From the NCBI GenBank assembly GCA_029204225.1, contig CM055096.1, positions 67,120,370-67,184,369 of the forward strand: a stretch of 64,000 nucleotides of DNA, read 5' to 3'. The notes under the pieces were generated by a model, which was not told the DNA's origin, did not search any database, and worked only from the letters and a program-made list of their open reading frames with translations. Position numbers and translations under genes: made by a program. Source of the DNA: Diphasiastrum complanatum (taxonomy: Eukaryota; Streptophyta; Lycopodiopsida; Lycopodiales; Lycopodiaceae). The number at the start of each line of letters is the position of its first letter. Positions within the stretch are counted from its first letter, which is position 1. Below, piece after piece: positions 5,606-60,132 of the stretch.

Positions 5606-6040
5606 CTGCGAAGAATATTAAAAATTAATGATTTTTTTTTATGATAGAAGAATATCTATTTTGAGCAGAAAAATAGCGTTAACTTGACATACTTCATTGC
5701 TAGAAGAAGATCGTTGTGATATCGGTTGTAGAGATTCGAGATTTATCACATGTTATTTGTTAGTTGCAAGTTTGTGTATAAAATGCATTGTAGGCAAACT
5801 GTACATTAGAATGATTAAAAGATATGAATCTGATGCGTGTTAGTTGTTGTCATAATCGATGTGTTGGTAGTTTCTTGTTCCAAGATCTTCAAAATGTTTT
5901 CAATTATGATAGGACCATCTGTAAGTCGAGCTCCTATGTCGGAGAGGTGGCCAAGTTGTCTCTCCAGGTCTGTGTTGATGGTTCAATTTTGCCCGAGACA
6001 TAGTTTTTCAATCTAACATAAAAATGTTATAACCAATCGT

Positions 6041-13051: not shown

Positions 13052-13063
13052 TGGTATCAGAGC
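13052..13063 (+). promoter_or_regulatory. Primer-binding site
   Basis: TGGTATCAGAGC, three bases after the LTR's CA end; initiator tRNA-Met type. Confidence 0.9.
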
Positions 13064-19446: not shown

Positions 19447-19475
19447 CTGACTTTTTTTCTGTACACCTGCTAAAA

Positions 19476-29960: not shown

Positions 29961-32290
29961 AGTTTGTAATAACTTAAGTAGTCGTCCATCGCTCTCGCGT
30001 AAATATTTGTATTTGAAACGTCGATTTTACATATATAAATTCAAAACTTTAATTTAGTTATCTATAAATTCTTCTGCAATATTTTTAATCATTTTGTATT
30101 TTTCTCTTTAAATGATATAGAGTTCTTATTTTACATTTATAGAAACCACGATTTTTTCAAGATATTCAAACTCAGTTGAACAACATTGTCATTAGCAATC
30201 AAAATTAGTTAAAAGATATTATTAATTGTCAAGTATTTCAATTCCGACATTGTACTTCATCATTATTAATTTGGAATGTTTTAATCTTCTAAAAAAATCC
30301 CAAAACACATGAACATGTAATTTTTGTAATCACTGATTGTGTGATTACAGATGTCTTTTTGAGACTGACATTTCAATATTTAATAGACACATAGATAATG
30401 CTTTTGTACTTTGTTATTTAATGTTCCTTTTCAAAATACAAGTTTTTTTAAATTACAACATAACGACATCAAACATACTTGAGTCGAATACAAAATTCAA
30501 TTATTATTATGACATGCAATTTGCTCTTTACAATTTTTGTTTGACTTGAATAGGGTCAAATATAAGTTGTAAAGAGCAAATTGCATGTCATAATGATAAT
30601 TGAATGTTGTATTCGACCCATGTATGTTTGATGTCGTTATGTTGTAACTTAAAAAAATTGCATTTTGAAAAGGAACATGAAATAACAAACTACAAAAGCA
30701 TCGTATGTGTGTATTAAACATAGAAATGTCATTCTCAAAAAGGTACTTGTAATCACACAGTTTGTAATTCACAAATGTGTTTTGGGATTTTTTTAGAAGA
30801 TCAAAATATTTCAAATCAATAATGATCAAGAACAATGTCAAAATTGAAATAGTTGGTAGATGATAATATCTTTTAGCTATTTTCACTACTAATGGCAACG
30901 TTGTTCAATTGAGTTTGAATATCTTGACAAAATTATGGTTTCTATAAACGTAAAATAAAAACTCTATCATTTAAAGGAAAAAATACAAAGTTAATGAAAA
31001 AATCGTAGAAGAATTCATAGATAACTAAATTAAAATTACAAATTTATATTAAGATTACGAATCGATAAAATGTGCCAAAAATTTTCAAATGTAAGATCGA
31101 CGTTTTAAATACCAGTACTTGTGCGAGAGCAAATAAATTATTACAAAAACTCGTATTCTTTTTTATCTAAATATTTTGATATACATTTTTTCTAATCTAT
31201 CTGCAATCGAAGAATCATTAACAATTTCTAATGTCCAAGTTTCAACATGATCAAAAAAATCGCTGCAAGTCTTGTCACGGACCATCTCTTTCGGTGGTCT
31301 ATGAGCATGTTGTCGCATGCGTCTGTCAAAATCTATTGTTGCCTATTCGAGAGACTATTTCATAAATTGTGAAGAACTTGCCCATAGTCGTTTTGGTGGC
31401 AGTGGCGGTGTCAAATCCTGCGAAGAATATTAAAAATTAATGATTTTTTTTTTATGATAGAAGAATATCTATTTTGAGCAAAAAAATATCGTTAACTTGA
31501 CATGCCTCATTGCTAGAAAAATATCGTTGTGATATCGGTTGTAGAGATTCGAGAGTTATCACATGTTATTTGTTAGTTGCAAGTTTGTATATAAAATGCA
31601 TTGTAGGCAAACTGTACATTAGAATGATTAAAAGGTATGAATCTGATGCATGTTAGTTGTTGTCGTAATCGATGTGTTAGTAGTTTCTTGTTCCAAGATC
31701 TTCAAAATGTTTTCAATTATGATAGGACCATCTGTCAGTAGAGCTCCTATGTCGGAGAGGTGGCCAAATTGTCTCTCCAGGTCTGTCTTGATGGTTCAAT
31801 TCTGTCCGAGACATAGTTTCTCAATTTGACATAAAAATGTTATAACCAAATATAGGTTACGTATTGCATAGTAACCTTTTTTAGAATGTGCTTCAAAATG
31901 TTGTATTGTTGTCCTATTTGTCTTGATCGAATCCGAGATCGCAATGGAAAACAATTTATAAAAGTGTTTCAAAAAACCTAAAAAAATTGAGGATGTTATA
32001 AAAATGATATGATTTTCATATGTTCACTACAATAAATTAAAAAGAATACAATGGAAAATAAATTAACAAAAGTAGAGGTGATTTTTTTACCTTCCACAGG
32101 ATCTCCGTAATGTTCATGCACATACGCTTCTCTTGCACGTTTTTGTGTTGTTATACACATGCTTATAGTGTAACTATTTTGAAACTCGTCTCTGTATTGT
32201 TCTGGATCAATTCCACAATCATTTAATAAGAATATTTGTCATGTCATAGGATAAATTTGCAATTAATATCTTGATATTTTCAAAACAATG
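28810..32290. repeat. Long palindrome B, centre near 30550
   Basis: TTTGACTTGAA on the left faces TAGGGTCAAA on the right with no spacer. Pairing extends outward to about 28810 (ATTTATCCTACGACGCGACAAATG) and 32285 (its inverted, diverged partner), so each arm is about 1.7 kb. Confidence 0.85.
31140..31430 (-). pseudogene. GIY-YIG exon, right arm of B (deleted motif)
   Basis: Aligned with 5331-5605 it keeps TIYEIVSRIG but loses about 23 bp that encode the YIG part (KLIYTGQT), shifting the frame. The C-terminal part (NDSSIADRLEKMYIKIF) remains readable out of frame. Confidence 0.75.
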
Positions 32291-39500: not shown

Positions 39501-39505
39501 TTTAG
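39501..39505 (+). repeat. Target-site duplication of the outer young copia, left
   Basis: TTTAG, matched by TTTAG at 52633-52637 after the 3' LTR. Confidence 0.9.
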
Positions 39506-39929
39506 TGTGAAAATTGTCAACATTTCCTAGCTAGTTTGAGGCCTAAATTGGCTAAAATTGTAAATAGTTTTGGTTCTGGAGTTTCACACGTGTGAACCAG
39601 GCCACAATGTTTTTATTTACTGTATTTTTTCAGTATGATGAAGTGTCAAACTTCATACCCTTCAAAATGAGACCATTTTGATGTATTTTGGTCATATAAG
39701 CCATTTTTAGCTATTTTTCCTATATAGGGAATATCTAGGGTCAAGTACCTTCTAGAGAGAGGAGAGAGAGTCATCTTCCTCATCCATAAATAGTAGGGAA
39801 GTCGTGGAGAACAGGTTGGAGAAACCTTTTGTATGCTTCATTGAGATCAATAGATCATTGTCATTGTTTCTTCCTCCATTGAGAGCATTGTTGTGTGTAT
39901 TGTCTTCAAGCTATTGTGTATGATCTTAG
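39506..39929 (+). repeat. Outer copia 5' LTR, first part
   Basis: First 424 bp of the LTR, from TGTGAAAATTGTC to GATCTTAG, including the TATA-like CCTATATAGG near 39719-39728. Identical by eye to the start of the 3' LTR at 51978. Confidence 0.95.
39925..39929 (+). repeat. Target-site duplication of the nested copia, left
   Basis: CTTAG, matched at 46621-46625 on the other side of the nested element. Confidence 0.95.
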
Positions 39930-40584
39930 TGTGAAAAATACAGATCCTAAGTGGATCTAAACTCCAAGATCATTGGCTTGAATGCTTGCACTCCAAACTA
40001 CATAAGCTAGGAATTGGCAACACATTCTATGCTACCTAGAATGCAAAGAACTTGATCAAAAAGCATTTATCACAAATGGAAACTTCCATAAACATCAAGT
40101 GTGGCCCAAAATAGCATTATACAGTCCATAATACATCAGCCTATCACTTTTGGAAAGCACCTAAGATCATACACAATAGCTTGAAGACAATACACACAAC
40201 AATGCTCTCAATGGAGGAAGAAACAATGACAATGATCTATTGATCTCAATGAAGCATACAAAAGGTTTCTCCAACCTGTTCTCCACGACTTCCCTACTAT
40301 TTATGGATGAGGAAGATGACTCTCTCTCTTCTCTCTAGAAGGTACTTGACCCTAGATATTCCCTATATAGGAAAAATAGCTAAAAATGGCTTATATGACC
40401 AAAATACATCAAAATGGTCTCATTTTGAAGGGTATGAAGTTTGACACTTCATCATACTGAAAAAATACAGTAAATAAAAACATTGTGGCCTGGTTCACAC
40501 GTGTGAAACTCCAGAACCAAAACTATTTACAATTTTAGCCAATTTAGGCCTCAAACTAGCTAGGAAATGTTGACAATTTTCACA
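39930..40584 (-). repeat. Inner copia 3' LTR
   Basis: On the minus strand runs TGTGAAAATTGTC to GTATTTTTCACA. The polypurine tract AAGAGGGAG (40585-40593, read on the minus strand) precedes it, and the gag-pol stop codon overlaps the LTR start. Confidence 0.95.
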
Positions 40585-43500
40585 CTCCCTCTTCAACATT
40601 GGATGCTAGTTTCAACATAGTCTTTGAGCACATTCCAAGATTAGATCTATGCATTAAATATAGGTCCTTTCCCAATGGTTTGGTGAAGATATCAGCCACA
40701 CACTCCTTTGAAGAGACATGTTGAAGCTCCACCTCTTTGGCAATGACTTGATCTCTCACAAAATGGTGAGCAATCTCAATGTGCTTGCTCCTTGCATGAA
40801 AAACAGGATTGCTTGCCAAGCTTTGGGCTGAAAGGTTATCACAAAGTATGATTGGAGTCTTCTCTGGTTCCAGCAAGTGAAGATCCAATAACATCCTCTT
40901 GATCCAAAGAATCTCCTTGGTGCATGTTGTTAATGCCTTGTACTCGGCTTCGGTGGAAGATAGAGAGATAGTTGGTTGCTTCTTTGATAGCCATGAGACC
41001 ACTCCATCTCCAAGATAGATTGCAAAGGCACTTGTTGACTTCCTATCCATTTGATCACCTGCAAAATCTGAATCTGAAAATCCACAAAGGTTAGGTGTAG
41101 TACCTCCATACAAGATGCCAAAATCTCTAGATCCCGAGATGTATCTAAGTACTCTCTTTCCTAGCTTCCAATGAGCCTCACTAGGATCTTGCATAAATTG
41201 ACTTAGTTTACCAACCACAAAGCTTAGATCAGGTCTTGTGATGGTTAACCATATAAGAGATCCTATTAGCTTTCTATAGAGAGTAATGTCCTTGAAGGAT
41301 CTTTCATTACTTCTTGTAGTTAGCTTTACATTTGATTCCATAGGAGTAGAAACAACTTTACAATCTTCCATATGAAACCTTTTTAGAATAGAGTTAACAT
41401 ACTTTTCTTGACATATGAATGTAGATTTAGAAGTTCTAATAATCTCTATTCCTAAGATATAATGAAGTTTACCAAGATCTTGAATTTCAAACTCTCTTTT
41501 GAGTGCCATCTTGATTTCATCTATATTTAGATTGTTACCACCACTTAAGATAATGTCATCAACATAGATCAAAAGTAAAGTGATATCATTTTCATTCAAT
41601 CTAAAGTAGAGAGAATGATCATACTCACTCATAACAAAGTTTTGAGAAAGTAAGAAGGAATTGAGCTTAGCATACCAACTCCTTGGTGCTTGCTTTAGCC
41701 CATACAAACTCTTTTGGAGATAGCACACATGATTAGGCTCATCATGTGAAACATAGCCCTCGGGTTGCTCCATGTAAATATCTTCTTCAAGATCACCATT
41801 CAAGAAGGCATTAGTAACATCCATTTGCCACATATCCCAATCATAAAGAGTTGCAAGAGAGATTAGGATTCGAATAGTTACCATCTTTGCCACGGGTGCA
41901 AAGGTCTCATCATAGTCAATACCATATTCTTGAGCATACCCCTTTGCCACCAACCTTGCCTTGTACTTGTTGATTGATCCATCTTGATTTGTCTTGATCT
42001 TGAAGATCCACTTACAACCAATTGCCTTCTTGTCCTTTGGAAGCTTTACCAACCTCCATGTGTTGCTTTTGATGAGTGCTTGATGCTCATGATCCATGGC
42101 TTGGATCCATTCCTTCTTTTGAATTGCTTCACCTACACAAGTTGGTTCATCAAAAGAGGTAAGAAAAGCAAAGTTAGAGTTGTCCACCACTTGCTTTCCT
42201 TTTTCATCATAGGTTAGCCTTGATGGCTTAGCCCTTTGCCTTTGAGTCTTCCTTGAAGTTTGCTTTGGAGTGGCATCTCCATCTTCATCCAAGACATCTT
42301 GCACATCATGATGATTAGTAGGAACATCAACATCAACATCAACAACATTGGAAACATTCTCTTCATGAAAGATGACATCCCTACTTATGACAACTTTCTT
42401 TGTAGAAGGAATGTACACTTTGTAAGCCTTGCTTACTTCACTATAGCCAACAAACACACCCTTCTTTGATGAAGGATCTTCTTTAGTTCTATCATCAAGT
42501 GTGATATTGACAAAACATGTACATCCAAAGATCCTACAATGCTTGACACTCGGCCTTCTACCATAAAGAACCTCATGAGGAGTTTTACCGTCCAAGGAAG
42601 CACTTGTCCATCTATTACATAGATAGTTAGCACATGCTAAAGCTTCCCCCCAAAAAGACTTAGCAAGATTAGCATGTAGTCTCATTGCCTTGGCACATTC
42701 ACAAAGGGTTCTATTCTTCCTCTCGGCCACTCCATTCTGTTGTGGAGTCCTAGGACTAGACATCTCCCTCTTAATCCCATGTGCTATACAAAAGTCTTTG
42801 AACCTATTTGAGGTGTATTCCCCTCCATTATCAGATCTTAAGCATTTGATCTTTGTATTGAATTGGTTTTCCATTTCATTCTTGAACTTGACAAATGCAG
42901 CAAACACTTCATCCTTACTTTTAAGAAGATAGATCCAAGTATACCTACTAAAGTCATCAATGAAAGTTGCATACATCTTTGCCCCACCATTGCTAGTTGT
43001 ACTAGAAGAATGAATATCAGAATGCACAAGTTGAAAAGCTTCTTTAGATCTAGAAGTAGATCTAGAATAAGCAAGTCTATGAGATTTGGACAAGGCACAA
43101 TGTTCACAAACACTATTGTTTGCAACAAGACTTTTAGGGAGACCAAGAACAAGCTCTTTCTTTGCCATTACCTCCAAAGATTTGAAGTTGGGATGGCCCA
43201 ACCTCTTGTGCCAAACTTCTTGGTTTGTCAATTGCTCCCTAGCCATACATCCTTCATGATTAGAGATCACACATGCATCAAGCTTGAAAAGTTTACCATG
43301 CCTCCTACCTTGAGCAATCAAGGATCCACATTTACTTATCAAACATGCATCTCCAATGAACTCCACATCAAGTCCTTTGTCAATCATTTGACTTACACTA
43401 AGCAAATTCTTAGTGATTGAAGGAATGTACAAAACATTTTCAAGATTTGCTTTCCTATTTGTTGAAAGGGAAATAGGAATAGTGCCTATGCCTTTGATGT

Positions 43501-44533
43501 CACATTGACCATCATTTGCAGTGTAGATGATGTTACCTTCTCCCTCATAAGACAATAAGGATGTAAAGTATTCCTTATGTCTTGTCATGTGAGATGAGGC
43601 TCCACTATCAATCCACCAAGGATCATTATCATCTATGTTGGCTAACAAACTTGAAGTCATAACAAGTGATTCACATGTGTTATGTTCTTCCTCATCTATT
43701 GTAAGATTTCCTTGCCTCTCTCCTTGCTCTCTTTTCTTCTTATAACATTCATTTGCAAAATGACCTTTTATCCCACAATAAAAGCACTTGAACTTTGACT
43801 TATTGTTCTTAGTAGAAGAGGAAGAGGAAGAGTGATCATCATGATCAAAGTTACCACCTTTGGACCATTTCCCTTTGCCTTTACCTTTGCCCTTGAATTT
43901 GCCTTTTGTGAAGAAAGCCTCTTCACCTCCACCTTGCAAGGATGCACCATCAAGCTTTGATTGCAACCTATGTTCTTCAGCCAATAAGATTTCTTGCAAG
44001 TCAACCACACTTGGCAAGACTCTTTGAATGGCAAAACTTTGCACAAGGTTAGCATGTTCATTTAGCAAACCATTCAACATAACTTGGACTATTTCACCAT
44101 CTTTTATGTTCTCATCAATGCATGCTAAATCATCACTTAGGGACTTAACTCTCAAGATAAATGCATGAGCACTTTCACCCTCTCTTTGCCTACTAGAAAA
44201 TATTTGTCTCCTTAGGGTCAATACCCTAGATGTGGACTTTGATTCAAAGAGCTTCTTTAAGGCATTCCATGCCTCACTTGCACTTTGACACTTTCCAACT
44301 TCCTTGAGAAGTTCATTTGTAACATTCATTTTAATGATATGAAGAGCCCTTTTGGCCTTCTTATCAAACCTTTGTTGCTCTTGAAGTGTGAGAGGTCTCT
44401 CTTCAATTTCTGCAACTATGTCCATGAGTTCATTCAACTCAAGTAAGGACTCCATCCTCACTTTCCAAGTAGAGTAGTTTGATGAACTCAACCTTTCACT
44501 AGACTCTAGCATGATCCCACCATTGGAAGCCAT
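40580..44533 (-). CDS. Ty1/copia gag-pol polyprotein, intact (inner copy)
   Basis: A 1317-residue single frame that would be cleaved into capsid, protease, integrase, RT and RNase H. Gag 1-270 has the SSNYSTWKVRMES start and a basic GKFKGKGKGKGK run. The zinc knuckle is C250, C253, H258, C263. Protease: DSGASSHMT at 309-317. Integrase: H442 and H447, C476 and C479, then catalytic D506, D568 and E604 with PQQNGVAERKNRTL, and a GYSEVSKAYKVY chromatin-side motif near 697-708. RT: WQMDVTNAFLNG near 902-913 and YVDD at 990-993. RNase H: D1154, E1196, D1232 and ADIFTKPL near 1280. No stops or shifts; all expected catalytic residues are present. It differs from the outer copy at five residues (156, 185, 362, 459, 901). 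The start follows a leader of about 1.16 kb after the PBS. Confidence 0.97.
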   Translation of the reverse strand: MASNGGIMLESSERLSSSNYSTWKVRMESLLELNELMDIVAEIEERPLTLQEQQRFDKKAKRALHIIKMNVTNELLKEVGKCQSASEAWNALKKLFESKSTSRVLTLRRQIFSSRQREGESAHAFILRVKSLSDDLACIDENIKDGEIVQVMLNGLLNEHANLVQSFAIQRVLPSVVDLQEILLAEEHRLQSKLDGASLQGGGEEAFFTKGKFKGKGKGKGKWSKGGNFDHDDHSSSSSSTKNNKSKFKCFYCGIKGHFANECYKKKREQGERQGNLTIDEEEHNTCESLVMTSSLLANIDDNDPWWIDSGASSHMTRHKEYFTSLLSYEGEGNIIYTANDGQCDIKGIGTIPISLSTNRKANLENVLYIPSITKNLLSVSQMIDKGLDVEFIGDACLISKCGSLIAQGRRHGKLFKLDACVISNHEGCMAREQLTNQEVWHKRLGHPNFKSLEVMAKKELVLGLPKSLVANNSVCEHCALSKSHRLAYSRSTSRSKEAFQLVHSDIHSSSTTSNGGAKMYATFIDDFSRYTWIYLLKSKDEVFAAFVKFKNEMENQFNTKIKCLRSDNGGEYTSNRFKDFCIAHGIKREMSSPRTPQQNGVAERKNRTLCECAKAMRLHANLAKSFWGEALACANYLCNRWTSASLDGKTPHEVLYGRRPSVKHCRIFGCTCFVNITLDDRTKEDPSSKKGVFVGYSEVSKAYKVYIPSTKKVVISRDVIFHEENVSNVVDVDVDVPTNHHDVQDVLDEDGDATPKQTSRKTQRQRAKPSRLTYDEKGKQVVDNSNFAFLTSFDEPTCVGEAIQKKEWIQAMDHEHQALIKSNTWRLVKLPKDKKAIGCKWIFKIKTNQDGSINKYKARLVAKGYAQEYGIDYDETFAPVAKMVTIRILISLATLYDWDMWQMDVTNAFLNGDLEEDIYMEQPEGYVSHDEPNHVCYLQKSLYGLKQAPRSWYAKLNSFLLSQNFVMSEYDHSLYFRLNENDITLLLIYVDDIILSGGNNLNIDEIKMALKREFEIQDLGKLHYILGIEIIRTSKSTFICQEKYVNSILKRFHMEDCKVVSTPMESNVKLTTRSNERSFKDITLYRKLIGSLIWLTITRPDLSFVVGKLSQFMQDPSEAHWKLGKRVLRYISGSRDFGILYGGTTPNLCGFSDSDFAGDQMDRKSTSAFAIYLGDGVVSWLSKKQPTISLSSTEAEYKALTTCTKEILWIKRMLLDLHLLEPEKTPIILCDNLSAQSLASNPVFHARSKHIEIAHHFVRDQVIAKEVELQHVSSKECVADIFTKPLGKDLYLMHRSNLGMCSKTMLKLASNVEEGV

Positions 44534-45690
44534 GATTCTAATGTTTCTTCAACTTTTAGGTTCTGTCCTAAAGCACTTAGCACTCACTTTTCTCTCAACA
44601 AATGATAGATAAAGAGATCTATGAAGATTTAGGACCCTAAAACACTTCTATCTTGAACCTAGATGGTTTCCAAGCATAGAAAGGAAGATTGAAACACATG
44701 CAACACTTTGCACACACTAAGAATGGATTACAAAATCAAACCAACCTGAACACACTCTTGCTTAAGCTCTCAAACTTTCCAGCAAGTGACCAAATCAAGT
44801 TATGGTGTGAAGAGTTACTTGCATTCTTAGAAAATACCCAAAACTAGGATGCCAAGATTACCTAGTAATGAACAAACTTGATCAACATATGATCAACACA
44901 CTAAGATATTGATTCAACCTGTAAAACCACATGTAAACCACACTTCTAAAAGTTTATAAACTCCAGCAAGTGATAAATACAAGATTTAGAGGTGAATGAA
45001 TGAGCACACTTAGTGAATCACAAGACTAGCTTCACTATCTTGTCAAATCTTGGTGTTTAGATGTAGATCTAAGATCACTTCACATGAGAATGTTCCTCAA
45101 CCTGTTAAGAACCTGAAAACACACTTGCATAATGGTTAACACCTTCCAGCAAATGCTCCAATCAAATTACATAAGGAGAGTTACTTACATGCTCAACAAA
45201 GTACACCAAAATTTATGCCAAAATTGATGACAATCTTTACAATATGCTCTTCACAATGGAGCTTACAATATGTTCACCCAAAAAAGGGGATCTTTCATCC
45301 AAATGGGAGCTTTGCTCAGCCTTTAGGAGAATTACAACTCACTCAAAAGAGCATTTGTCATCCACTTAAGGAGAAGTTTCATCCACTTAAGGAGAGTGTT
45401 CATCCAAGAATGGAGATTGTCAACAATAGGATTGAAAAGAACATTGTTAGTATTGAATATGCACAAGCCTCACAATCACAAATGATTAGGTGTTATGATC
45501 TGATCCAAAATAGTTTCTTTTCAGCCTCTGATCTTCAATAGACCTGAAATATGCTTTTGATCCACAAGTTCAACTCACAAAACAAAGGTTAGTAAGATTT
45601 GATCAACAAAGCAATGCAAAATCATGCTAGAACTTGATCAAACATCCAAATATCACCAAAAATGGAATACTTACTGTAAATAGAAGCCAA
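44534..45690 (-). other. Inner copia leader (untranslated, before gag)
   Basis: About 1.16 kb between primer site and gag ATG, matching 46872-48028. It contains repeated words such as CTTGCTGGA and CAGGTT..., and short CATCCACTTAAGGAGA tandem units (near 45360-45400, plus-strand reading). Likely packaging/leader sequence; the antisense 108-codon frame here is treated as chance. Confidence 0.7.
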
Positions 45691-45705
45691 CCAGCTCTGA
45701 TACCA
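45691..45705 (-). promoter_or_regulatory. Copia primer-binding site, displaced from its LTR
   Basis: TGGTATCAGAGCTGG on the minus strand, identical to the outer copy's site at 46857-46871, but here it follows a foreign 144-bp LTR instead of the copia LTR. Confidence 0.9.
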
Positions 45706-45849
45706 TGTTAGAAATCCATAAATCATAATATGGATGGACAGACTAGGATTCGAACCCAGGACCTCCCTCATACTGGATGAGATGCTCTACCACTGAGCTA
45801 TCCGCCCTGTTTGATAGTTCTCTCTAGAGTGTGGATTGATATTCCAACA
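45706..45849 (-). repeat. 144-bp LTR containing a tRNA-like sequence
   Basis: TG..CA ends, placed between a G-rich polypurine tract and a primer site, as an LTR should be. Its centre is the tRNA-like stretch described at 45736-45807, and its 3' part holds a short hairpin (CCATA...TATGG, 45717-45734). Confidence 0.7.
45736..45807 (-). tRNA. tRNA-like sequence inside the TRIM-like LTR
   Basis: 72 nt fold as a cloverleaf: acceptor GGGCGGA / TCTGTCC (7 bp with G-U pairs), D stem GCTC/GAGC, anticodon stem TCTCA/TGAGG, loop TCCAGTA, variable GAGGTC, T stem CTGGG/CCTAG with loop TTCGAAT. Pol III box A (TAGCTCAGTGGTAGAGC, 45784-45800) and a perfect box B (GGTTCGAATCC, 45746-45756) are present. Position 33 is C, not the near-universal U, and no CCA or T-run terminator follows, so it is probably a tRNA-derived promoter module rather than a working tRNA gene. 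If read literally the anticodon would be CAG, yet a Leu tRNA would need a long variable arm, which is absent. Confidence 0.65.
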
Positions 45850-45950
45850 CCCCCCCTCAAGCCACACTTGGTTGGGGTCCTAGTTGTCACCTGCCCCACA
45901 TCTTGGGCCACCTAACCATGGCTTTGACACCATGAACTGTTAGGTCTAAC

Positions 45951-45965
45951 TTGGCTCTGATACCA
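45951..45965 (-). promoter_or_regulatory. Second primer-binding site, TRIM-derived
   Basis: TGGTATCAGAGCCAA, directly after the inner copia 5' LTR. After the shared 12-mer it reads CAA, not the copia TGG, marking it as the other element's site. Confidence 0.85.
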
Positions 45966-46620
45966 TGTGAAAAATACAGATCCTAAGTGGATCTAAACTC
46001 CAAGATCATTGGCTTGAATGCTTGCACTCCAAACTACATAAGCTAGGAATTGGCAACACATTCTATGCTACCTAGAATGCAAAGAACTTGATCAAAAAGG
46101 ATTTATCACAAATGGAAACTTCCATAAACATCAAGTGCGGCCCAAAATAGCATTATACAGTCCATAATACATCAGCCTATCACTTTTGGAAAGCACCTAA
46201 GATCATACACAATAGCTTGAAGACAATACACACAACAATGCTCTCAATGGAGGAAGAAACAATGACAATGATCTATTGATCTCAATGAAGCATACAAAAG
46301 GTTTCTCCAACCTGTTCTCCACGACTTCCCTACTATTTATGGATGAGGAAGATGACTCTCTCTCCTCTCTCTAGAAGGTACTTGACCCTAGATATTCCCT
46401 ATATAGGAAAAATAGCTAAAAATGGCTTATATGACCAAAATACATCAAAATGGTCTCATTTTGAAGGGTATGAAGTTTGACACTTCATCATACTGAAAAA
46501 ATACAGTAAATAAAAACATTGTGGCCTGGTTCACACGTGTGAAACTCCAGAACCAAAACTATTTACAATTTTAGCCAATTTAGGCCTCAAACTAGCTAGG
46601 AAATGTTGACAATTTTCACA
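45966..46620 (-). repeat. Inner copia 5' LTR
   Basis: 655 bp, three differences from the 3' LTR. Read on the minus strand it carries the TATA-like CCTATATAGG near 46398-46407. Confidence 0.95.
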
Positions 46621-46625
46621 CTTAG
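46621..46625 (+). repeat. Target-site duplication of the nested copia, right
   Basis: CTTAG, pairs with 39925-39929. Confidence 0.95.
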
Positions 46626-46856
46626 GTGCTTTCCAAAAGTGGTAGGCTGATGTATTATGGACTGTATAATGCTATTTTGGGCCGCACTTGATGTTTATGG
46701 AAGTTTCCATTTGTGGTAAATGCTTTTTGATCAAGTTCTTTGCATTCTAGGTAGCATAGAATGTGGTGCCAATTCCTAGCTTATGTAGTTTGGAGTGCAA
46801 GCATTCAAGCCAATGATCTTGGAGTTTAGATCCACTTAGGATCTGTATTTTTCACA
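46626..46856 (+). repeat. Outer copia 5' LTR, second part
   Basis: Remaining 231 bp, GTGCTTTCC to TTTTTCACA, directly followed by the primer site. With 39506-39929 it restores a 655-bp LTR. Confidence 0.95.
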
Positions 46857-46871
46857 TGGTATCAGAGCTGG
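46857..46871 (+). promoter_or_regulatory. Primer-binding site of the outer copia
   Basis: TGGTATCAGAGCTGG immediately after the LTR, the normal arrangement that the inner copy has lost. Confidence 0.95.
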
Positions 46872-48028
46872 TTGGCTTCTATTTACAGTAAGTATTCCAT
46901 TTTTGGTGATATTTGGATGTTTGATCAAGTTCTAGCATGATTTTGCATTGCTTTGTTGATCAAATCTTACTAACCTTTGTTTTGTGAGTTGAACTTGTGG
47001 ATCAAAAGCATATTTCAGGTCTATTGAAGATCAGAGGCTGAAAAGAAACTATTTTGGATCAGATCATAACACCTAATCATTTGTGATTGTGAGGCTTGTG
47101 CATATTCAATACTAACAATGTTCTTTTCAATCCTATTGTTGACAATCTCCATTCTTGGATGAACACTCTCCTTAAGTGGATGAAACTTCTCCTTAAGTGG
47201 ATGACAAATGCTCTTTTGAGTGAGTTGTAATTCTCCTAAAGGCTGAGCAAAGCTCCCATTTGGATGAAAGATCCCCTTTTTTGGGTGAACATATTGTAAG
47301 CTCCATTGTGAAGAGCATATTGTAAAGATTGTCATCAATTTTGGCATAAATTTTGGTGTACTTTGTTGAGCATGTAAGTAACTCTCCTTATGTAATTTGA
47401 TTGGAGCATTTGCTGGAAGGTGTTAACCATTATGCAAGTGTGTTTTCAGGTTCTTAACAGGTTGAGGAACATTCTCATGTGAAGTGATCTTAGATCTACA
47501 TCTAAACACCAAGATTTGACAAGATAGTGAAGCTAGCCTTGTGATTCACTAAGTGTGCTCATTCATTCACCTCTAAATCTTGTATTTATCACTTGCTGGA
47601 GTTTATAAACTTTTAGAAGTGTGGTTTACATGTGGTTTTACAGGTTGAATCAATATCTTAGTGTGTTGATCATATGTTGATCAAGTTTGTTCATTACTAG
47701 GTAATCTTGGCATCCTAGTTTTGGGTATTTTCTAAGAATGCAAGTAACTCTTCACACCATAACTTGATTTGGTCACTTGCTGGAAAGTTTGAGAGCTTAA
47801 GCAAGAGTGTGTTCAGGTTGGTTTGATTTTGTAATCCATTCTTAGTGTGTGCAAAGTGTTGCATGTGTTTCAATCTTCCTTTCTATGCTTGGAAACCATC
47901 TAGGTTCAAGATAGAAGTATTTTAGGGTCCTAAATCTTCATAGATCTCTTTATCTATCATTTGTTGAGAGAAAAGTGAGTGCTAAGTGCTTTAGGACAGA
48001 ACCTAAAAGTTGAAGAAACATTAGAATC
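46872..48028 (+). other. Outer copia leader
   Basis: Untranslated leader between primer site and gag ATG, matching the inner copy's leader. Confidence 0.7.
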
Positions 48029-51000
48029 ATGGCTTCCAATGGTGGGATCATGCTAGAGTCTAGTGAAAGGTTGAGTTCATCAAACTACTCTACTTGGAAA
48101 GTGAGGATGGAGTCCTTACTTGAGTTGAATGAACTCATGGACATAGTTGCAGAAATTGAAGAGAGACCTCTCACACTTCAAGAGCAACAAAGGTTTGATA
48201 AGAAGGCCAAAAGGGCTCTTCATATCATTAAAATGAATGTTACAAATGAACTTCTCAAGGAAGTTGGAAAGTGTCAAAGTGCAAGTGAGGCATGGAATGC
48301 CTTAAAGAAGCTCTTTGAATCAAAGTCCACATCTAGGGTATTGACCCTAAGGAGACAAATATTTTCTAGTAGGCAAAGAGAGGGTGAAAGTGCTCATGCA
48401 TTTATCTTGAGAGTTAAGTCCCTAAGTGATGATTTAGCATGCATTGATGAGAACATAAAAGATGGTGAAATAGTCCAAGTTATGTTGAATGGTTTTCTAA
48501 ATGAACATGCTAACCTTGTGCAAAGTTTTGCCATTCAAAGAGTCTTGCCAAGTGTGGTTGACTTGCAAGAAATCTTATTGGTTGAAGAACATAGGTTGCA
48601 ATCAAAGCTTGATGGTGCATCCTTGCAAGGTGGAGGTGAAGAGGCTTTCTTCACAAAAGGCAAATTCAAGGGCAAAGGTAAAGGCAAAGGGAAATGGTCC
48701 AAAGGTGGTAACTTTGATCATGATGATCACTCTTCCTCTTCCTCTTCTACTAAGAACAATAAGTCAAAGTTCAAGTGCTTTTATTGTGGGATAAAAGGTC
48801 ATTTTGCAAATGAATGTTATAAGAAGAAAAGAGAGCAAGGAGAGAGGCAAGGAAATCTTACAATAGATGAGGAAGAACATAACACATGTGAATCACTTGT
48901 TATGACTTCAAGTTTGTTAGCCAACATAGATGATAATGATCCTTGGTGGATTGATAGTGGAGCCTCATCTCACATGACAAGACATAAGGAATACTTTACA
49001 TCCTTATTGTCTTATGAGGGAGAAGGTAACATCATCTACACTGCAAATGATGGTCAATGTGACATCAAAGGCATAGGCACTATTCCTATTTCCCTTTCAA
49101 CAAATAGGAAAACAAATCTTGAAAATGTTTTGTACATTCCTTCAATCACTAAGAATTTGCTTAGTGTAAGTCAAATGATTGACAAAGGACTTGATGTGGA
49201 GTTCATTGGAGATGCATGTTTGATAAGTAAATGTGGATCCTTGATTGCTCAAGGTAGGAGGCATGGTAAACTTTTCAAGCTTGATGCATGTGTGATCTCT
49301 AATCATGAAGGATGTATGGCTAGGGAGCAATTGACAAACCAAGAAGTTTGGCACAAGAGGTTGGGCCATCCCAACTTCAAATCTTTGGAGGTAATGGCAA
49401 AGAGAGAGCTTGTTCTTGGTCTCCCTAAAAGTCTTGTTGCAAACAATAGTGTTTGTGAACATTGTGCCTTGTCCAAATCTCATAGACTTGCTTATTCTAG
49501 ATCTACTTCTAGATCTAAAGAAGCTTTTCAACTTGTGCATTCTGATATTCATTCTTCTAGTACAACTAGCAATGGTGGGGCAAAGATGTATGCAACTTTC
49601 ATTGATGACTTTAGTAGGTATACTTGGATCTATCTTCTTAAAAGTAAGGATGAAGTGTTTGCTGCATTTGTCAAGTTCAAGAATGAAATGGAAAACCAAT
49701 TCAATACAAAGATCAAATGCTTAAGATCTGATAATGGAGGGGAATACACCTCAAATAGGTTCAAAGACTTTTGTATAGCACATGGGATTAAGAGGGAGAT
49801 GTCTAGTCCTAGGACTCCACAACAGAATGGAGTGGCCGAGAGGAAGAATAGAACCCTTTGTGAATGTGCCAAGGCAATGAGACTACATGCTAATCTTGCT
49901 AAGTCTTTTTGGGGGGAAGCTTTAGCATGTGCTAACTATCTATGTAATAGATGGACAAGTGCTTCCTTGGATGGTAAAACTCCTCATGAGGTTCTTTATG
50001 GTAGAAGGCCGAGTGTCAAGCATTGTAGGATCTTTGGATGTACATGTTTTGTCAATATCACACTTGATGATAGAACTAAAGAAGATCCTTCATCAAAGAA
50101 GGGTGTGTTTGTTGGCTATAGTGAAGTAAGCAAGGCTTACAAAGTGTACATTCCTTCTACAAAGAAAGTTGTCATAAGTAGGGATGTCATCTTTCATGAA
50201 GAGAATGTTTCCAATGTTGTTGATGTTGATGTTGATGTGCCTACTAATCATCATGATGTGCAAGATGTCTTGGATGAAGATGGAGATGCCACTCCAAAGC
50301 AAACTTCAAGGAAGACTCAAAGGCAAAGGGCTAAGCCATCAAGGCTAACCTATGATGAAAAAGGAAAGCAAGTGGTGGACAACTCTAACTTTGCTTTTCT
50401 TACCTCTTTTGATGAACCAACTTGTGTAGGTGAAGCAATTCAAAAGAAGGAATGGATCCAAGCCATGGATCATGAGCATCAAGCACTCATCAAAAGCAAC
50501 ACATGGAGGTTGGTAAAGCTTCCAAAGGACAAGAAGGCAATTGGTTGTAAGTGGATCTTCAAGATCAAGACAAATCAAGATGGATCAATCAACAAGTACA
50601 AGGCAAGGTTGGTGGCAAAGGGGTATGCTCAAGAATATGGTATTGACTATGATGAGACCTTTGCACCCGTGGCAAAGATGGTAACTATTCGAATCCTAAT
50701 CTCTCTTGCAACTCTTTATGATTGGGATATATGGCAAATGGATGTTACTAATGCCTTCTTGAATGGTGATCTTGAAGAAGATATTTACATGGAGCAACCC
50801 GAGGGCTATGTTTCACATGATGAGCCTAATCATGTGTGCTATCTCCAAAAGAGTTTGTATGGGCTAAAGCAAGCACCAAGGAGTTGGTATGCTAAGCTCA
50901 ATTCCTTCTTACTTTCTCAAAACTTTGTTATGAGTGAGTATGATCATTCTCTCTACTTTAGATTGAATGAAAATGATATCACTTTACTTTTGATCTATGT

Positions 51001-51982
51001 TGATGACATTATCTTAAGTGGTGGTAACAATCTAAATATAGATGAAATCAAGATGGCACTCAAAAGAGAGTTTGAAATTCAAGATCTTGGTAAACTTCAT
51101 TATATCTTAGGAATAGAGATTATTAGAACTTCTAAATCTACATTCATATGTCAAGAAAAGTATGTTAACTCTATTCTAAAAAGGTTTCATATGGAAGATT
51201 GTAAAGTTGTTTCTACTCCTATGGAATCAAATGTAAAGCTAACTACAAGAAGTAATGAAAGATCCTTCAAGGACATTACTCTCTATAGAAAGCTAATAGG
51301 ATCTCTTATATGGTTAACCATCACAAGACCTGATCTAAGCTTTGTGGTTGGTAAACTAAGTCAATTTATGCAAGATCCTAGTGAGGCTCATTGGAAGCTA
51401 GGAAAGAGAGTACTTAGATACATCTCGGGATCTAGAGATTTTGGCATCTTGTATGGAGGTACTACACCTAACCTTTGTGGATTTTCAGATTCAGATTTTG
51501 CAGGTGATCAAATGGATAGGAAGTCAACAAGTGCCTTTGCAATCTATCTTGGAGATGGAGTGGTCTCATGGCTATCAAAGAAGCAACCAACTATCTCTCT
51601 ATCTTCCACCGAAGCCGAGTACAAGGCATTAACAACATGCACCAAGGAGATTCTTTGGATCAAGAGGATGTTATTGGATCTTCACTTGCTGGAACCAGAG
51701 AAGACTCCAATCATACTTTGTGATAACCTTTCAGCCCAAAGCTTGGCAAGCAATCCTGTTTTTCATGCAAGGAGCAAGCACATTGAGATTGCTCACCATT
51801 TTGTGAGAGATCAAGTCATTGCCAAAGAGGTGGAGCTTCAACATGTCTCTTCAAAGGAGTGTGTGGCTGATATCTTCACCAAACCATTGGGAAAGGACCT
51901 ATATTTAATGCATAGATCTAATCTTGGAATGTGCTCAAAGACTATGTTGAAACTAGCATCCAATGTTGAAGAGGGAGTGTGA
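48029..51982 (+). CDS. Ty1/copia gag-pol polyprotein, intact (outer copy)
   Basis: A 1317-residue frame with the same domain series as the inner copy: gag with zinc knuckle at 250-263, protease DSGA at 309-312, integrase D506, D568 and E604, RT YVDD at 990-993, RNase H D1154, E1196 and D1232. It differs from the inner copy by F156, V185, T362, R459 and I901, none at a catalytic position. The stop codon overlaps the 3' LTR start, and the polypurine tract AAGAGGGAG (51969-51977) codes for the last residues. The protein looks functional, but its 5' LTR is interrupted about 7 kb upstream of its primer site, so expression would need the nested copy's LTR or another promoter. Confidence 0.97.
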   Translation: MASNGGIMLESSERLSSSNYSTWKVRMESLLELNELMDIVAEIEERPLTLQEQQRFDKKAKRALHIIKMNVTNELLKEVGKCQSASEAWNALKKLFESKSTSRVLTLRRQIFSSRQREGESAHAFILRVKSLSDDLACIDENIKDGEIVQVMLNGFLNEHANLVQSFAIQRVLPSVVDLQEILLVEEHRLQSKLDGASLQGGGEEAFFTKGKFKGKGKGKGKWSKGGNFDHDDHSSSSSSTKNNKSKFKCFYCGIKGHFANECYKKKREQGERQGNLTIDEEEHNTCESLVMTSSLLANIDDNDPWWIDSGASSHMTRHKEYFTSLLSYEGEGNIIYTANDGQCDIKGIGTIPISLSTNRKTNLENVLYIPSITKNLLSVSQMIDKGLDVEFIGDACLISKCGSLIAQGRRHGKLFKLDACVISNHEGCMAREQLTNQEVWHKRLGHPNFKSLEVMAKRELVLGLPKSLVANNSVCEHCALSKSHRLAYSRSTSRSKEAFQLVHSDIHSSSTTSNGGAKMYATFIDDFSRYTWIYLLKSKDEVFAAFVKFKNEMENQFNTKIKCLRSDNGGEYTSNRFKDFCIAHGIKREMSSPRTPQQNGVAERKNRTLCECAKAMRLHANLAKSFWGEALACANYLCNRWTSASLDGKTPHEVLYGRRPSVKHCRIFGCTCFVNITLDDRTKEDPSSKKGVFVGYSEVSKAYKVYIPSTKKVVISRDVIFHEENVSNVVDVDVDVPTNHHDVQDVLDEDGDATPKQTSRKTQRQRAKPSRLTYDEKGKQVVDNSNFAFLTSFDEPTCVGEAIQKKEWIQAMDHEHQALIKSNTWRLVKLPKDKKAIGCKWIFKIKTNQDGSINKYKARLVAKGYAQEYGIDYDETFAPVAKMVTIRILISLATLYDWDIWQMDVTNAFLNGDLEEDIYMEQPEGYVSHDEPNHVCYLQKSLYGLKQAPRSWYAKLNSFLLSQNFVMSEYDHSLYFRLNENDITLLLIYVDDIILSGGNNLNIDEIKMALKREFEIQDLGKLHYILGIEIIRTSKSTFICQEKYVNSILKRFHMEDCKVVSTPMESNVKLTTRSNERSFKDITLYRKLIGSLIWLTITRPDLSFVVGKLSQFMQDPSEAHWKLGKRVLRYISGSRDFGILYGGTTPNLCGFSDSDFAGDQMDRKSTSAFAIYLGDGVVSWLSKKQPTISLSSTEAEYKALTTCTKEILWIKRMLLDLHLLEPEKTPIILCDNLSAQSLASNPVFHARSKHIEIAHHFVRDQVIAKEVELQHVSSKECVADIFTKPLGKDLYLMHRSNLGMCSKTMLKLASNVEEGV

Positions 51983-52632
51983 AAATTGTCAACATTTCCT
52001 AGCTAGTTTGAGGCCTAAATTGGCTAAAATTGTAAATAGTTTTGGTTCTGGAGTTTCACACGTGTGAACCAGGCCACAATGTTTTTATTTACTGTATTTT
52101 TTCAGTATGATGAAGTGTCAAACTTCATACCCTTCAAAATGAGACCATTTTGATGTATTTTGGTCATATAAGCCATTTTTAGCTATTTTTCCTATATAGG
52201 GAATATCTAGGGTCAAGTACCTTCTAGAGAGAGGAGAGAGAGTCATCTTCCTCATCCATAAATAGTAGGGAAGTCGTGGAGAACAGGTTGGAGAAACCTT
52301 TTGTATGCTTCATTGAGATCAATAGATCATTGTCATTGTTTCTTCCTCCATTGAGAGCATTGTTGTGTGTATTGTCTTCAAGCTATTGTGTATGATCTTA
52401 GGTGCTTTCCAAAAGTGGTAGGCTGATGTATTATGGACTGTATAATGCTAATTTGGGCCACACTTGATCTTTATGGAAGTTTCCATTTGTGGTAAATGCT
52501 TTTTGATCAAGTTCATTGCATTCTAGGTAGCATAGAATGTGTTGCCAATTCCTAGCTTATGTAGTTTGGAGTGCAAGCATTCAAGCCAATGATCTTGGAG
52601 TTTAGATCCACTTAGGATCTGTATTTTTCACA
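51978..52632 (+). repeat. Outer copia 3' LTR
   Basis: 655 bp, TGTGAAAATTGTC to GTATTTTTCACA, intact. TATA-like CCTATATAGG at 52191-52200. Confidence 0.97.
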
Positions 52633-52637
52633 TTTAG
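52633..52637 (+). repeat. Target-site duplication of the outer copia, right
   Basis: TTTAG, pairs with 39501-39505. Confidence 0.9.
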
Positions 52638-55375: not shown

Positions 55376-56096
55376 TCTAGCTATGAACCCTCAAGCTCCA
55401 CCTGGTTGCTTGAAGAGCGAGTTGCAGGGAGCCAGAACGGGCCAGTAGATTGCGAGCAGGGAGGCGCGAGCAGCGAGCAGAGAAGCCAAGCAAATGAGTA
55501 CTCCTCAACTTTCCTAACCAACGTGCTTCCACATCCACGAGTTTACATCTCTTCCAAAGTCGTGTTATGAAGAGTAAGAGCAAAGTTTTTTTTGGAGAGG
55601 TGGCCTCACAAAACCAACTTTCAAACGACGGTTCGACCAAGCACCCGAGCCCTCCCCACCGAGCACAACCTTCAACATGCAAAGAGTATACAGTTGTCCA
55701 CATTTCAATATTTAGTTGAACTCTTTATGCCGGTGTTAAGAAATGGCTAACCCAAGTTGGCATTGTGAAGTTGCTTTAAAGTCCACTTTCTTATAATATG
55801 TGCGTGTCATAATATAGTCACATGTTGATGAAGTTAATGAAGTTATTAATATGTAGTAGGTGCTATGTTTTTTATAATAAAAAAAAAAAAGGGTTGTGCA
55901 TTTATTCCTTGTGTTTTTTCACCTTGTAGATAAGTGTAATTAGGTTATCTCATGGCCTAAGCCTGTGCCTAAAACAAAAAATTGGAAATGTCCATAAAGT
56001 CTTAGCCTTTAACTTAAACATGTGTCTCCTCATCATAAGTTGTAAAGTTGCAAGTGATGAAATGTGCATGACATGTGTGAATGCATTGTGATTGGA
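55376..56096 (-). repeat. Repeat R, inverted copy beside SAC3B copy 2
   Basis: Reverse complement of 18738-19446. In copy 1 it lies upstream of the SAC3-domain exon in direct orientation; here it is flipped and the SAC3-domain exon is missing. Confidence 0.8.
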
Positions 56097-56113
56097 GATG
56101 ATTACTGATTCAC

Positions 56114-58439
56114 TGTCATCACTCCCTAAAATCTCAATGGTTCGCATGATAGGGAAAGGACATTGAAGAGCTTCTTGATCGTCACGGCTTTCTATTTGAC
56201 AATTTGAAGAACCTTATATGGTGAAGGAGGGCCCTTTTCTTCATAGTCACAGAAATGATCCAACACGAATATCTTCATCGGTTATTCAACGATGGTTGTT
56301 AATGATGTCAAATTCCAAGGCCATGTCACAGAGATCAAGAGCCTTTCAAATGATAGAGCTTCAGCAAATGCAAGAGAGAGGCTTGGAGGGATATTCAGGG
56401 TGGTGGTTTTGTAATACCTGAAGAGGACATGCCTGACTATGAAGACGAAGAACAACAGAGGGAGGAGCTGATGTAATGATTGGCATTTATTGTATGCTTG
56501 GAAGCTGGGTAGTGGCAACTTATTATTCTACAGGGGGTGGAGGCTAAGAGCGTCTGATAATATATAGGATAAGCGTCATAAGAAAAAGAGGGCAGAAGTA
56601 GAATTGCCTCATTCAGCAGTGGGTCCTTCTCTAAGAGAATTCATAGGTTATGTGTAGCTCTTATTGCATGTTTTTTTTTTTGTCTCTTGGATATCACTTG
56701 ATAGATTCTTTGCAGCCCTTTTGTTGTTTTACGTTTTTAGTTGTGTGATTTCAGTGTATTAACAATGAAAGAATGCAAATGCTGCAGCCAGGGGTGCAGT
56801 TACGGATTCAGACAAATATCAAATTAATAAAACCTGGACAGCTGTATGTGCCTTCCCTGGTGGCACAAATATTAAACGGCAAGGATCCTCACGCTAGGTG
56901 TCTTTGTTGAAAGTTGGCAGTTTGTTCAAGATCACATGATAACTATTCGAGCCCTGAGATCAAAGACTATCTTAAGAAATTCGTTGGTGAGTAATTGAAA
57001 TTTAAGCTTTTCAATGGCAGACAGGTACAGGGGAATATGCAAAAGTCCTTTCATCATCGGTCAGAAATTGCTGTAACAAGTAATGTGATAAGTGTCAGTT
57101 TGGATCTGAAAGTGGTGAAAAGCTGTTTCTGTGGTGCATTGTTCAAGAGCTTGGATTCATCAATAAGAGGCCAAAAGATGAAGCGGGTATGGATGGTGCA
57201 AGTGGTCTACTGTTTCTGCCACTCAATAGTTTACCCATTGATGAGGAGTTCACAAGATTGCATGCTCTGGCTGACAGCATCCCGTCTGGCAGCCACCTTC
57301 CCCTTCTTATATAAACTCACGACTTGAGCATCTGTTTGAGAGGAATGGTTTGCTCCTGAGCACATATTCAAGCCAACCGTAGGATATTTTGCAACAATCT
57401 TACAGCTGGACGAATTGGATAAAGTGAAGGTCAGCTGCTAGTTAATTCTGCCCGTAATGAACCACGACGAGTTATCAACTGAAAACAATCCAAGTTTGTT
57501 ACGTAAAAGGGATTTCCATGTCTCGAATCTTCCGAAGCATGCAGATAATATGGACCAAGTTTCCATGAATTTGGGCAATCCTGTAAAGCTGTTGCTAGCT
57601 AGCAAGGCACCTGCAGCACCAGATGTGCATCATGTGAATGTTCAGGATCTTGTCTTGGAACACTTAGAGCCACATTTGAGATTGCTACTGACTATGCATC
57701 CATCCAATGTCACACCTGAGAGCTGCATAGGCATTTTCAATCCGTCGTTACAGAATGCAATAAAGGAGATCAAACTATCTGCCGCTACAACTATTCCTCA
57801 CTGGCCTCCACCTGAACTTGGAGATGTCTCTGAGGGGGCTGAAAGAGATTTGTCACATGCCCATTTGCCTTCTGCTGGCTGAAATGAGCCTGCTACATTG
57901 CACCTGAAATGTTCCTGCTTTTTCCAAACCTTACTCTTGGGCATTGTTCCAAGTTTGAGACTACTAATTTCCTACCATTGACCAATAAGGCGCCGTCAAA
58001 ACGTGGAATCATTGATGAAATCCAAAATCAAAAGGTCATAATTTATATACATTGCCACAGTGCATGGGTTGATTAGGAGAAATTGGGGAAGGAAGCTGGT
58101 CAGCAGGTGAAAGGGATTCTAGAGAAGTCTAGTATACTAAATTGTACTGATACCAGCTGTGAGGTTATTCCAAAGTGGGCCTACTTGTTCCAGATCACAT
58201 ATCAGACCAGATTGTTGCACTTAAATGGTGAGCCTGCTCCAGATGTATATGTGCTTCATAAGAGCAGCATGGCTCGAAAGCAAGATGAATTTGAAAAAAT
58301 CCTTGGCTCCCCTGTTTTTATTTTCTGTATGATCAAGGAAAATAAGCAAAGCATTGCTGTATATGAAGAATTTTTCTTGTCTGACTTTTATCATGAAAAC
58401 ATACTTGATGAGGCTATAGAATGTTTTCCCAACAACTGA
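56114..58439 (+). pseudogene. SAC3B: SAC3B/GANP-like pseudogene copy 2
   Basis: Direct duplicate of about 19963-22798. Present: DIEELLDRHGF (about 56159), EGPFLHSH (56226), KFKLFNGRQVQGNMQK (56998), KPTVGYFATI (57371), and a longer open frame 57457-57882 with LLASKAPAAPDVHHVNVQDL, CIGIFNPSLQNAIKEIKL and PHWPPPELG. The C-terminal frame 58083-58439 has KWAYLFQITYQTRLLHL and EDF-rich tail residues. Lost relative to copy 1: the SAC3-domain exon, about 450 bp between GAGGGAGGAG and CTGATGTAATG (joined at 56469), and about 45 bp near 56813. It lacks the stop seen at about 21950 in copy 1, so the two copies decayed independently after duplication. Confidence 0.65.
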
Positions 58440-60132
58440 AGTCGAAAATGATTTGTTACCGGTTTATGAATGTATTTTAAGTTTTAACTATTGATGCAAA
58501 CTTACAAAAGTGTTTGCTGTTGAGTTATACTTTGTAACTTGAAATTCTAGGGTAACATTCAGCAACTTTTAGAGGGATGTGATTGATACAAGTTTCCTCC
58601 TATATACTCGAAACTTATCACTCTATCCATTTAGTTAGCCACAAAACCAACCCAATCATTGTACATGTTGGATACCAAAAGTTGAGCTCTTTAATGTTCA
58701 ATGTTGGGAGTTGACGATGGACGTGAAAGTACATTCTTGAGGGTAATCATTCTTAGTCTCTATGAAGGTTTATGTAGATGATAAAATTTTAGTTTTGGAT
58801 TGACGCCCAGAACAAATACCATAACGTTGAAACTTAAATTATTGTCTCATGGGTTGAAAAGGGACAACACGCTGGATGTAGCTGGCACATTGAAAATTTC
58901 ATAGGCACAAAATCTTTTTGAGAAAAAACTCGTTACCAATCTATGTAGCCTGCTGTGTAACTAATGTTCAAGATTGCTCTTAAAATTGTTAACCTTTTCT
59001 TAGGGCTTTACTTGTCCTAATTATAGTTCCATCAAGATTTTGCATGCAAATAGGTCATGTTATTTTAATGTAGGAAATTTGACAAATATAATATATCTTT
59101 TTTCTTGAAGATTTAGTTTTATACAAATGTTTTGTGAAGTCATCTTAATTACTTATTTTTAGCAAAATCTATAGGAAACTCATAATAAAACCATTATGTG
59201 ATGTCTCTATGTTTTATTGAAATTATAAACTATTCGAAAGTAGTTGTAAAAGTATCATTTTTTTTTAATAGGCCCATGAAAAAGGTGTGCTATATTGCAC
59301 TTTAAAATTCTTGCTTCATTGATTTCTGACATTTTTTTTTATTGCTTCATGTTTTCTTGCGACTCCACATTCTTCTATTGCTATTCTTGTATAGGGTTGC
59401 TCTTGTTATCATGGAGATTGCTAGAGAAGATATTCAAAAGCTATTGCTTGTCACTCCTATTGAGAACCAAGTCAATTGAATTTTCTCTAGGTTCATAGTG
59501 ATATTATTGATACTTTGGCAAAGATAGGTGCACACACAAGGAAATGATCATTTGCTATGGATTATAGATCGACTATACTTTATCCATATAGACTTGAGAG
59601 TTCCAGATTATGATGGTACCACAGTAGTTCTTTTCAGGTCTAGAATAAAAATTTCATGAGACTTTTTTCATCATTGAGTGAAGCCTTTCAATTTTTTTTC
59701 TCAATAATTTACATATATAGTCTTTATGCTCTACCCTTGGGAAGGGATTCTCAAAACCAATAAATACATATAGATATTATTGTATTTAAAAAATCTCCAA
59801 ATGTTGTGAGAAGGAATGAAGTAGATGATTTATTTGGAAGGGCTCTTGCAACATGTAAAATAACGGGACTTTCCCAAGATTGGATTATGTATTTTATGAA
59901 ATTAGCGTATTTCAAGTATGTCACATACTGCTCATTTGACAACAATAACTGAATTATTTTCTCGAATGTGTGTGTGTGACTTGTCGGTTGACATTTGGTA
60001 GCGATGAGAATTGTAGGCAGAAAGTTTAGGGTAGTTGAAGCTTTCTGACGTTGTGCACTACTGATGGTGTTATAAGAAAAAGTTACACCTCAATAGAAGT
60101 CTTATTGTTGTATGAGAAATATTTTCAATCCT
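58440..60132 (+). repeat. Duplicated 3' flank of SAC3B copy 2
   Basis: Parallels 22799-24512 with few differences; the (TG)n tract is short here (about 59968-59978). No gene supported. Confidence 0.8.

Follow-up and report, generated by a model that had tools for sequence, protein, structure and literature searches.

A tRNA-bearing TRIM joined to unrelated copia elements at the primer-binding site in the genome of Diphasiastrum complanatum

INTRODUCTION

Three-LTR complexes formed between members of the same retrotransposon family were described by Sabot and Schulman 2007 (PMC1950507), together with a model in which templates are switched in the R region. Tandem arrays of TRIM and Cassandra elements are documented in passages of Gao 2016 (PMC4717578) and Kalendar 2020 (PMC7215508), and the latter refers there to the autonomous partners of Cassandra as unknown. 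According to excerpts of Hou 2010 (PMC2923131), mini-Tnt1 experiments indicate that a copia element packages two or more RNAs and switches between templates, and the recombination treated in the corresponding part of Sanchez 2017 took place inside one family. In the pertinent section of a wheat study (PMC9744471), partners were inferred from a common primer-binding site (PBS) and common LTR ends, not from fusions.

Helenus, or TRIMp3, was named by Kojima 2024 (PMC10886601), the only publication on Helenus/TRIMp3 returned by our search of the literature from 2015 on. Passages of that paper report the family of Selaginella as the only plant one, and call the upkeep of the helper dependence of non-autonomous elements unknown. 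In the present study we analysed a stretch of the Diphasiastrum complanatum genome in which a TRIM-like unit lies in a copia element at the PBS.

RESULTS

A TRIM-like unit between the LTR and the PBS of a copia element

The window (the whole stretch of DNA analysed, 64,000 nt at G000:C5:67120370-67184369, in a genome of 1.74 Gb) contains two copia elements of one family, copia-1, one nested in the other, and 260 bases that only the inner one carries:

39506..52632, plus strand: outer copia, of the same family as the inner one and in the opposite orientation, without the insert; PBS at 46857
39930..46620, minus strand: inner copia (copia-1) with the TRIM unit and an intact ORF, inserted into the outer copia's 5′ LTR
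45966..46620, minus strand: 5′ LTR of the inner copia, 655 bp, ending in ...TTTTTCACA
45706-45965, minus strand: insert of 260 bases between the 5′ LTR and the PBS
45954..45965, minus strand: first PBS 12-mer TGGTATCAGAGC, the left joint (LTR1, PBS, TRIM internal region)
45850..45965, minus strand: TRIM internal region of 116 bp, PBS included, with a G7 polypurine tract as its 3′ end
45706..45849, minus strand: TRIM LTR, 144 bp, TGTTGG...CTAACA
45694..45705, minus strand: second PBS 12-mer TGGTATCAGAGC, the right joint (TRIM LTR, PBS, copia-1 internal region)
40580..44533, minus strand: intact Gag-Pol ORF of the inner copia, 1317 aa
39930..40584, minus strand: 3′ LTR of the inner copia

The inner copia is flanked by a clean CTTAG target duplication (39925-39929 and 46621-46625) and the outer copia by TTTAG (39501-39505 and 52633-52637). 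The two LTRs of the inner copia differ at 3 of the 657 columns compared. Both elements contain a single ORF of 1317 aa with Gag, integrase and RT domains in copia order, and the integrase located before RT, the RVT_2 domain and the 5-bp duplication place copia-1 in the copia superfamily. With the 260 bases set aside, the internal regions of the two copies aligned without a gap and with 9 mismatches in 5119 positions. Read on the minus strand, the insert starts with TGGTATCAGAGC, which we take to match the 3′ end of plant initiator-methionine tRNA, and runs through the internal region, G7 and the 144-bp TG..CA LTR to TGGTATCAGAGC anew, with both joints in the shared 12-mer. An earlier note on this DNA, made from the letters, had described the insert, its absence from the near-identical outer copy, this layout, the clean duplication and the matching LTRs, and our re-reading confirmed each of these observations.

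Two extra copies of the PBS 12-mer lie in the window outside both copias, at 268-279 (minus strand) and 13052-13063 (plus strand). The window also holds large repeats, both direct and inverted, that are 80-91% identical (2820-6036 and 28672-32272), which are unconnected with the TRIM unit, and a further long repeat pair (18740-24520 and 55391-60140) that is at most 96% identical.

A tRNA-like sequence in the TRIM LTR

The TRIM LTR contains a feature absent from the earlier note:

45735..45807, minus strand: tRNA-like sequence, 73 nt, found with Rfam RF00005 (50.5 bits) and with ARAGORN
45790-45800, minus strand: A box of the tRNA-like sequence
45746-45756, minus strand: B box of the tRNA-like sequence

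The RF00005 match is full-length and its score compares with a cut-off of 29 bits. A scan of 13 TRIM loci gave 24 tRNA matches, and the A and B boxes were exact in seven of the eight TRIM loci tried and missing in L030. Since the sequence folded no better than its shuffles (z −0.51), the tRNA-like assignment rests on the covariance model. The lack of TTTT in the TRIM was considered as a sign of Pol III use and discarded as not significant, 25% of the shuffles being free of TTTT as well. The TRIM is 404 bp long (144+116+144), non-coding, and composed of two short LTRs, a PBS and a polypurine tract, which is the structure of a TRIM, and its size lies inside the Helenus range of 311-1263 bp. As the LTR holds a tRNA-derived sequence with A and B boxes, and 5-bp duplications are present, the inserted unit is, judged by its features, part of a Helenus-type TRIM. 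An IMG/VR pattern and plasmid search gave zero matches.

Free copies and arrays of the TRIM

Scoring of the best 40 of 1248 candidates gave at least 43 full-length TRIM-unit matches at 40 loci. Four pairs had common flanks, leaving 36 distinct loci, which are the top-scoring ones rather than a random sample, with counts that are lower bounds. Plain two-LTR copies accounted for 25 of these 36, flanked by exact 5-bp duplications in 19 cases, by duplications with one mismatch in three and by sequences unmatched by position in three. The 144-bp LTR thus occurs in separate two-LTR elements with duplications of their own, the check that the earlier note had proposed, which supports its interpretation of the insert as a TRIM-like unit joined at the common PBS. 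The remaining loci were one two-LTR copy plus an extra LTR fragment (L031), three-LTR forms at two loci (L002/L003 and L020) and eight one-LTR loci, five of them PBS chimeras (L001, L021, L024/L025, L030 and L039), one a nested insertion (L004/L007) and two unexplained or eroded (L026 and L029).

The nested insertion (C5156 and C19) had been considered as a TRIM with a foreign 5′ LTR and was rejected, as copia-2 lies reversed against the TRIM LTR remnant. L024 and L025 were rejected as two events, being one duplicated stretch that is ~99.5% alike including the flanks. At L026 (G000:C1:20178326-20178585) a one-LTR TRIM unit has a stretch resembling copia integrase on one side and a different repeat pair on the other, and no clear target duplication was seen at this locus. 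In a wider TRIM search the best 40 of 4713 candidates were scored, and from the new places L066-L070 and the arrays L063-L065 were read, L060-L062 being places already identified. Tandem arrays of the form LTR-internal-LTR-internal-LTR were found at L002 and L063, and arrays also at L064 and L065. The array at L065 (C1247) is a shorter one, and more arrays are suggested among the matches listed.

Chimeras of the TRIM with copia elements

A foreign LTR followed by the exact PBS 12-mer and the TRIM internal region was found at no fewer than ten distinct loci on several contigs, the window included, and three of the partner LTRs are mutually unrelated. As ten distinct loci carry this joint type, the joint in the window is not due to chance, and the earlier note, which knew of no described case with such an architecture, had put the matter too strongly and overstated its uniqueness. 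Copia LTRs are outermost in the window chimera (CTTAG), and copia-2 LTRs in L068 (GACTG), L066 (AAGCA) and L067 (ATGCC); L021 (C4:71.51 Mb) is a copia-2 chimera truncated on both sides. The copia-3 pair on C2, again with the copia LTRs outside, represents one event inside a duplicated stretch; its 3′ LTR ends in TTATA, not CA, so the duplication TGGAT depends on the chosen LTR end and is obtained only if this is set at TTATA. Two reciprocal chimeras have the TRIM LTRs outermost and copia-2 inside, L030 (C6) with an exact ATATA and LTRs different at 5 of 144 positions, and L039 (C2:31.0 Mb) with an exact GATAC and LTRs different at 0 of 144. All seven chimeras with both ends seen had 5-bp duplications. 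At two more loci (L076/L077 and L078/L079) other LTRs are joined to the TRIM at the PBS. In each case the two members are nearly identical across the 550-600 bases retrieved. Their LTRs show a likeness to the copia-1 LTR end, but blastn with the complete copia-1 LTR found no match to the L076-L079 LTRs at 1e-3.

In all eight joints read where a TRIM LTR meets the internal region of an identified copia, the two are separated by the PBS (five exact, three with one mismatch). Two loci, L066 and the copia-3 pair, have a copia 5′ LTR whose final ~12 bases are like the TRIM LTR end and unlike the 3′ LTR, so that U5 can contain the left switch or a tract of conversion. L020/L062 has the start of a copia-2 LTR (35 bases) first and a TRIM LTR last within one GTTAT duplication, and its inner joint is at base 91 of the TRIM internal region, away from the PBS. 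Because the 35-base copia-2 piece meets the TRIM at this base, a deletion or a second jump has to be assumed. Integrase and RT pieces are present in copia-2, and no ORF of 100 aa was found across the stretch scanned of copia-3, which may thus itself be non-autonomous. At L069 (C3:28.563 Mb) and L070 (C8:59.302 Mb) a TRIM LTR and PBS are followed by unmatched sequence, and no partner element was identified within ~4 kb. The anatomy, the joints, their recurrence and the duplications were all read directly from the DNA.

Sequence shared between the partners

When the TRIM LTR and the LTRs of copias 1-3 were compared in pairs, none of the six pairs showed similarity at E 0.1. Comparison of the TRIM internal region with the first kb of the copia internal regions gave in common the 10-12 bases of the PBS and one 9-base match at chance level, which leaves the PBS as the only clear sequence the partners share. 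Because the LTRs are dissimilar and the internal regions share only the PBS, a switch through R has nothing to pair and appears unlikely here. The chimeras have the internal LTR, the flanking duplication and the like outer LTRs of template-switch complexes, and their partners are not alike enough for R-region pairing.

DISCUSSION

Transfer of the plus strand at the PBS is a normal step of reverse transcription in which exactly the PBS stretch is paired, and in retroviruses it is mostly intramolecular. We consider it probable that copia and TRIM were joined while co-packaged elements were being reverse-transcribed, by strand transfer at the PBS, and we infer a common particle, the strands concerned and the following order of steps. 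Plus-strand strong-stop DNA of the copia, ending in the PBS copied from the tRNA primer, would pair with the PBS complement at the end of the TRIM minus strand in place of the copia's own, and extension would pass through the TRIM internal region and LTR. Copying of the primer still attached to the TRIM minus strand would restore a PBS end, which could then pair with the copia minus strand for normal completion, and the linear product with copia LTRs outside would integrate with the usual 5-bp duplication. Identical steps begun at the TRIM LTR would give the reciprocal form, a single hop would give an element with two unlike ends, a form like L020, and transfer from TRIM to TRIM would give tandem arrays, as at L002 and L063.

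The inner joint of L020/L062, which is off the PBS, and the switch in L066 and the copia-3 pair, possibly within U5, can be held against strand transfer. The former lowers its weight and raises that of a crossover, in which a one-LTR circle of the TRIM (for the reciprocal form, of the copia) recombines once in the common PBS with an integrated or linear partner. This crossover would give the same structure, with the duplication and outer LTRs of the recipient kept, and most of the chimera duplications and outer LTRs would be equally expected if the partner was integrated; L066 and the copia-3 pair, with LTR ends like that of the TRIM, also look as if they held a heteroduplex tract. We nevertheless regard it as rather unlikely, as it requires a precise exchange within 12-15 bp to be repeated and does not readily produce the heterotypic ends of L020/L062 inside one duplication. 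The earlier note had left two possibilities, movement of the chimera itself or joining after insertion. Among the best 40 of 1013 candidates, none was a near-identical second copy of the window chimera. Across its joint, the best of the other matches were at 84% for the 160-base query and at 88% for 129 bases of it, which gives no support to movement of the window copy; the reciprocal chimeras with their duplications, together with the unlike ends of L020/L062, make formation ahead of integration somewhat more likely.

The lack of such a copy among the candidates scored speaks against a single origin, in which all loci would descend from a first chimera copied as a mobile family. L021 and L068 do share descent, as their TRIM units are identical except for one base of a G-run and their copia LTRs are 99.5% alike with different flanks, and the three copia-2 chimeras with copia LTRs outside and differing exact duplications would also suit a mobile family. 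However, three of the partner LTRs are mutually unrelated, two others resemble the copia-1 LTR end only, and the TRIM units of the six copia-2 chimera loci as a single clade were rejected (p 0.008), making one origin for all loci very improbable. The chimera and free labels change seven times over 43 TRIM units on a weakly supported tree, which has no well-supported branch and whose best-supported branches are compatible with one origin, and conversion could mimic apparent many origins. With several partner families and the single clade of copia-2 units rejected, the sequences support repeated joining events. We give least credence to the explanations that copia-1 ancestrally carried the 260 bases and the outer copy lost them, or that the joint is an assembly error. 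As far as compared, neither of the two findings named by the earlier note as refuting its view was made. The copia-1 comparison covers two copies, the insert-free copia-1 joint resting on the outer one; as far as compared, the joint without the insert is present in that copy and in copia-2 (L041), free TRIMs with their own duplications are common, the same joint type occurs on several contigs, and exact loss of the unit between PBS copies would need the same exchange anyway.

With the PBS as the only clear shared sequence, strand transfer there remains our preferred reading. The repeated splicing of this TRIM to unrelated larger elements at or near the site where copying starts suggests that particles were shared during copying. 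On a broader and more tentative view, intermolecular plus-strand transfer at the PBS may regularly fuse unrelated LTR elements in plants, giving heterotypic, reciprocal and tandem forms alike, with a putative Pol III-type TRIM and several unrelated copia families being copied in the same particles. If true, this would establish same-particle copying of a TRIM and several copia families, for which elements of this kind offer no other known example. The tRNA-bearing TRIM–copia fusions point to helper partners from DNA alone, and a genome scan for joints of LTR end, PBS and foreign internal region is applicable to any plant genome.

The rice Dasheng/RIRE2 chimeras and LTR swapping in soybean are reportedly precedents for fused partners, and PBS joints are possible in these. 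We recognised no description of TRIM–copia fusion at the PBS in those parts of the literature searched, which covered few subscription papers. Like Helenus, the element described here is a short non-coding LTR element with a PBS, a polypurine tract and, in its LTR, a tRNA-like sequence that has A and B boxes, and it shares the 5-bp duplications of the fungal and plant members in the account given there; fusions with autonomous elements are not described in the corresponding passages of Kojima 2024 (PMC10886601). The arrays at L002 and L063 have the LTR-internal-LTR-internal-LTR order of one TRIM seen in the TRIM and Cassandra arrays, which in the passages concerned contain a single family per array and, in Kalendar 2020 (PMC7215508), are attributed to LTR recombination; the word tRNA is absent from the main text of Gao 2016 (PMC4717578), as far as that text is available. 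The mini-Tnt1 experiments likewise concern a copia with multi-RNA packaging and template switching, but the switches, as presented in excerpts of that study (PMC2923131), were within one family and ascribed to minus-strand synthesis. Like the present chimeras, the complexes of Sabot and Schulman (PMC1950507) have three LTRs and two cores, a single duplication and like outer LTRs, and they were explained by a switch between co-packaged RNAs. They join near-identical family members and are accounted for by R pairing, whereas here the LTRs are unrelated and the PBS is the only clear overlap. Because the partners share only the PBS, the chimeras locate the template switch, which same-family complexes cannot. 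Taken together, the structure in the window is real, more general than the earlier note had supposed, and a variant of the template-switch complex with a testable mechanism.
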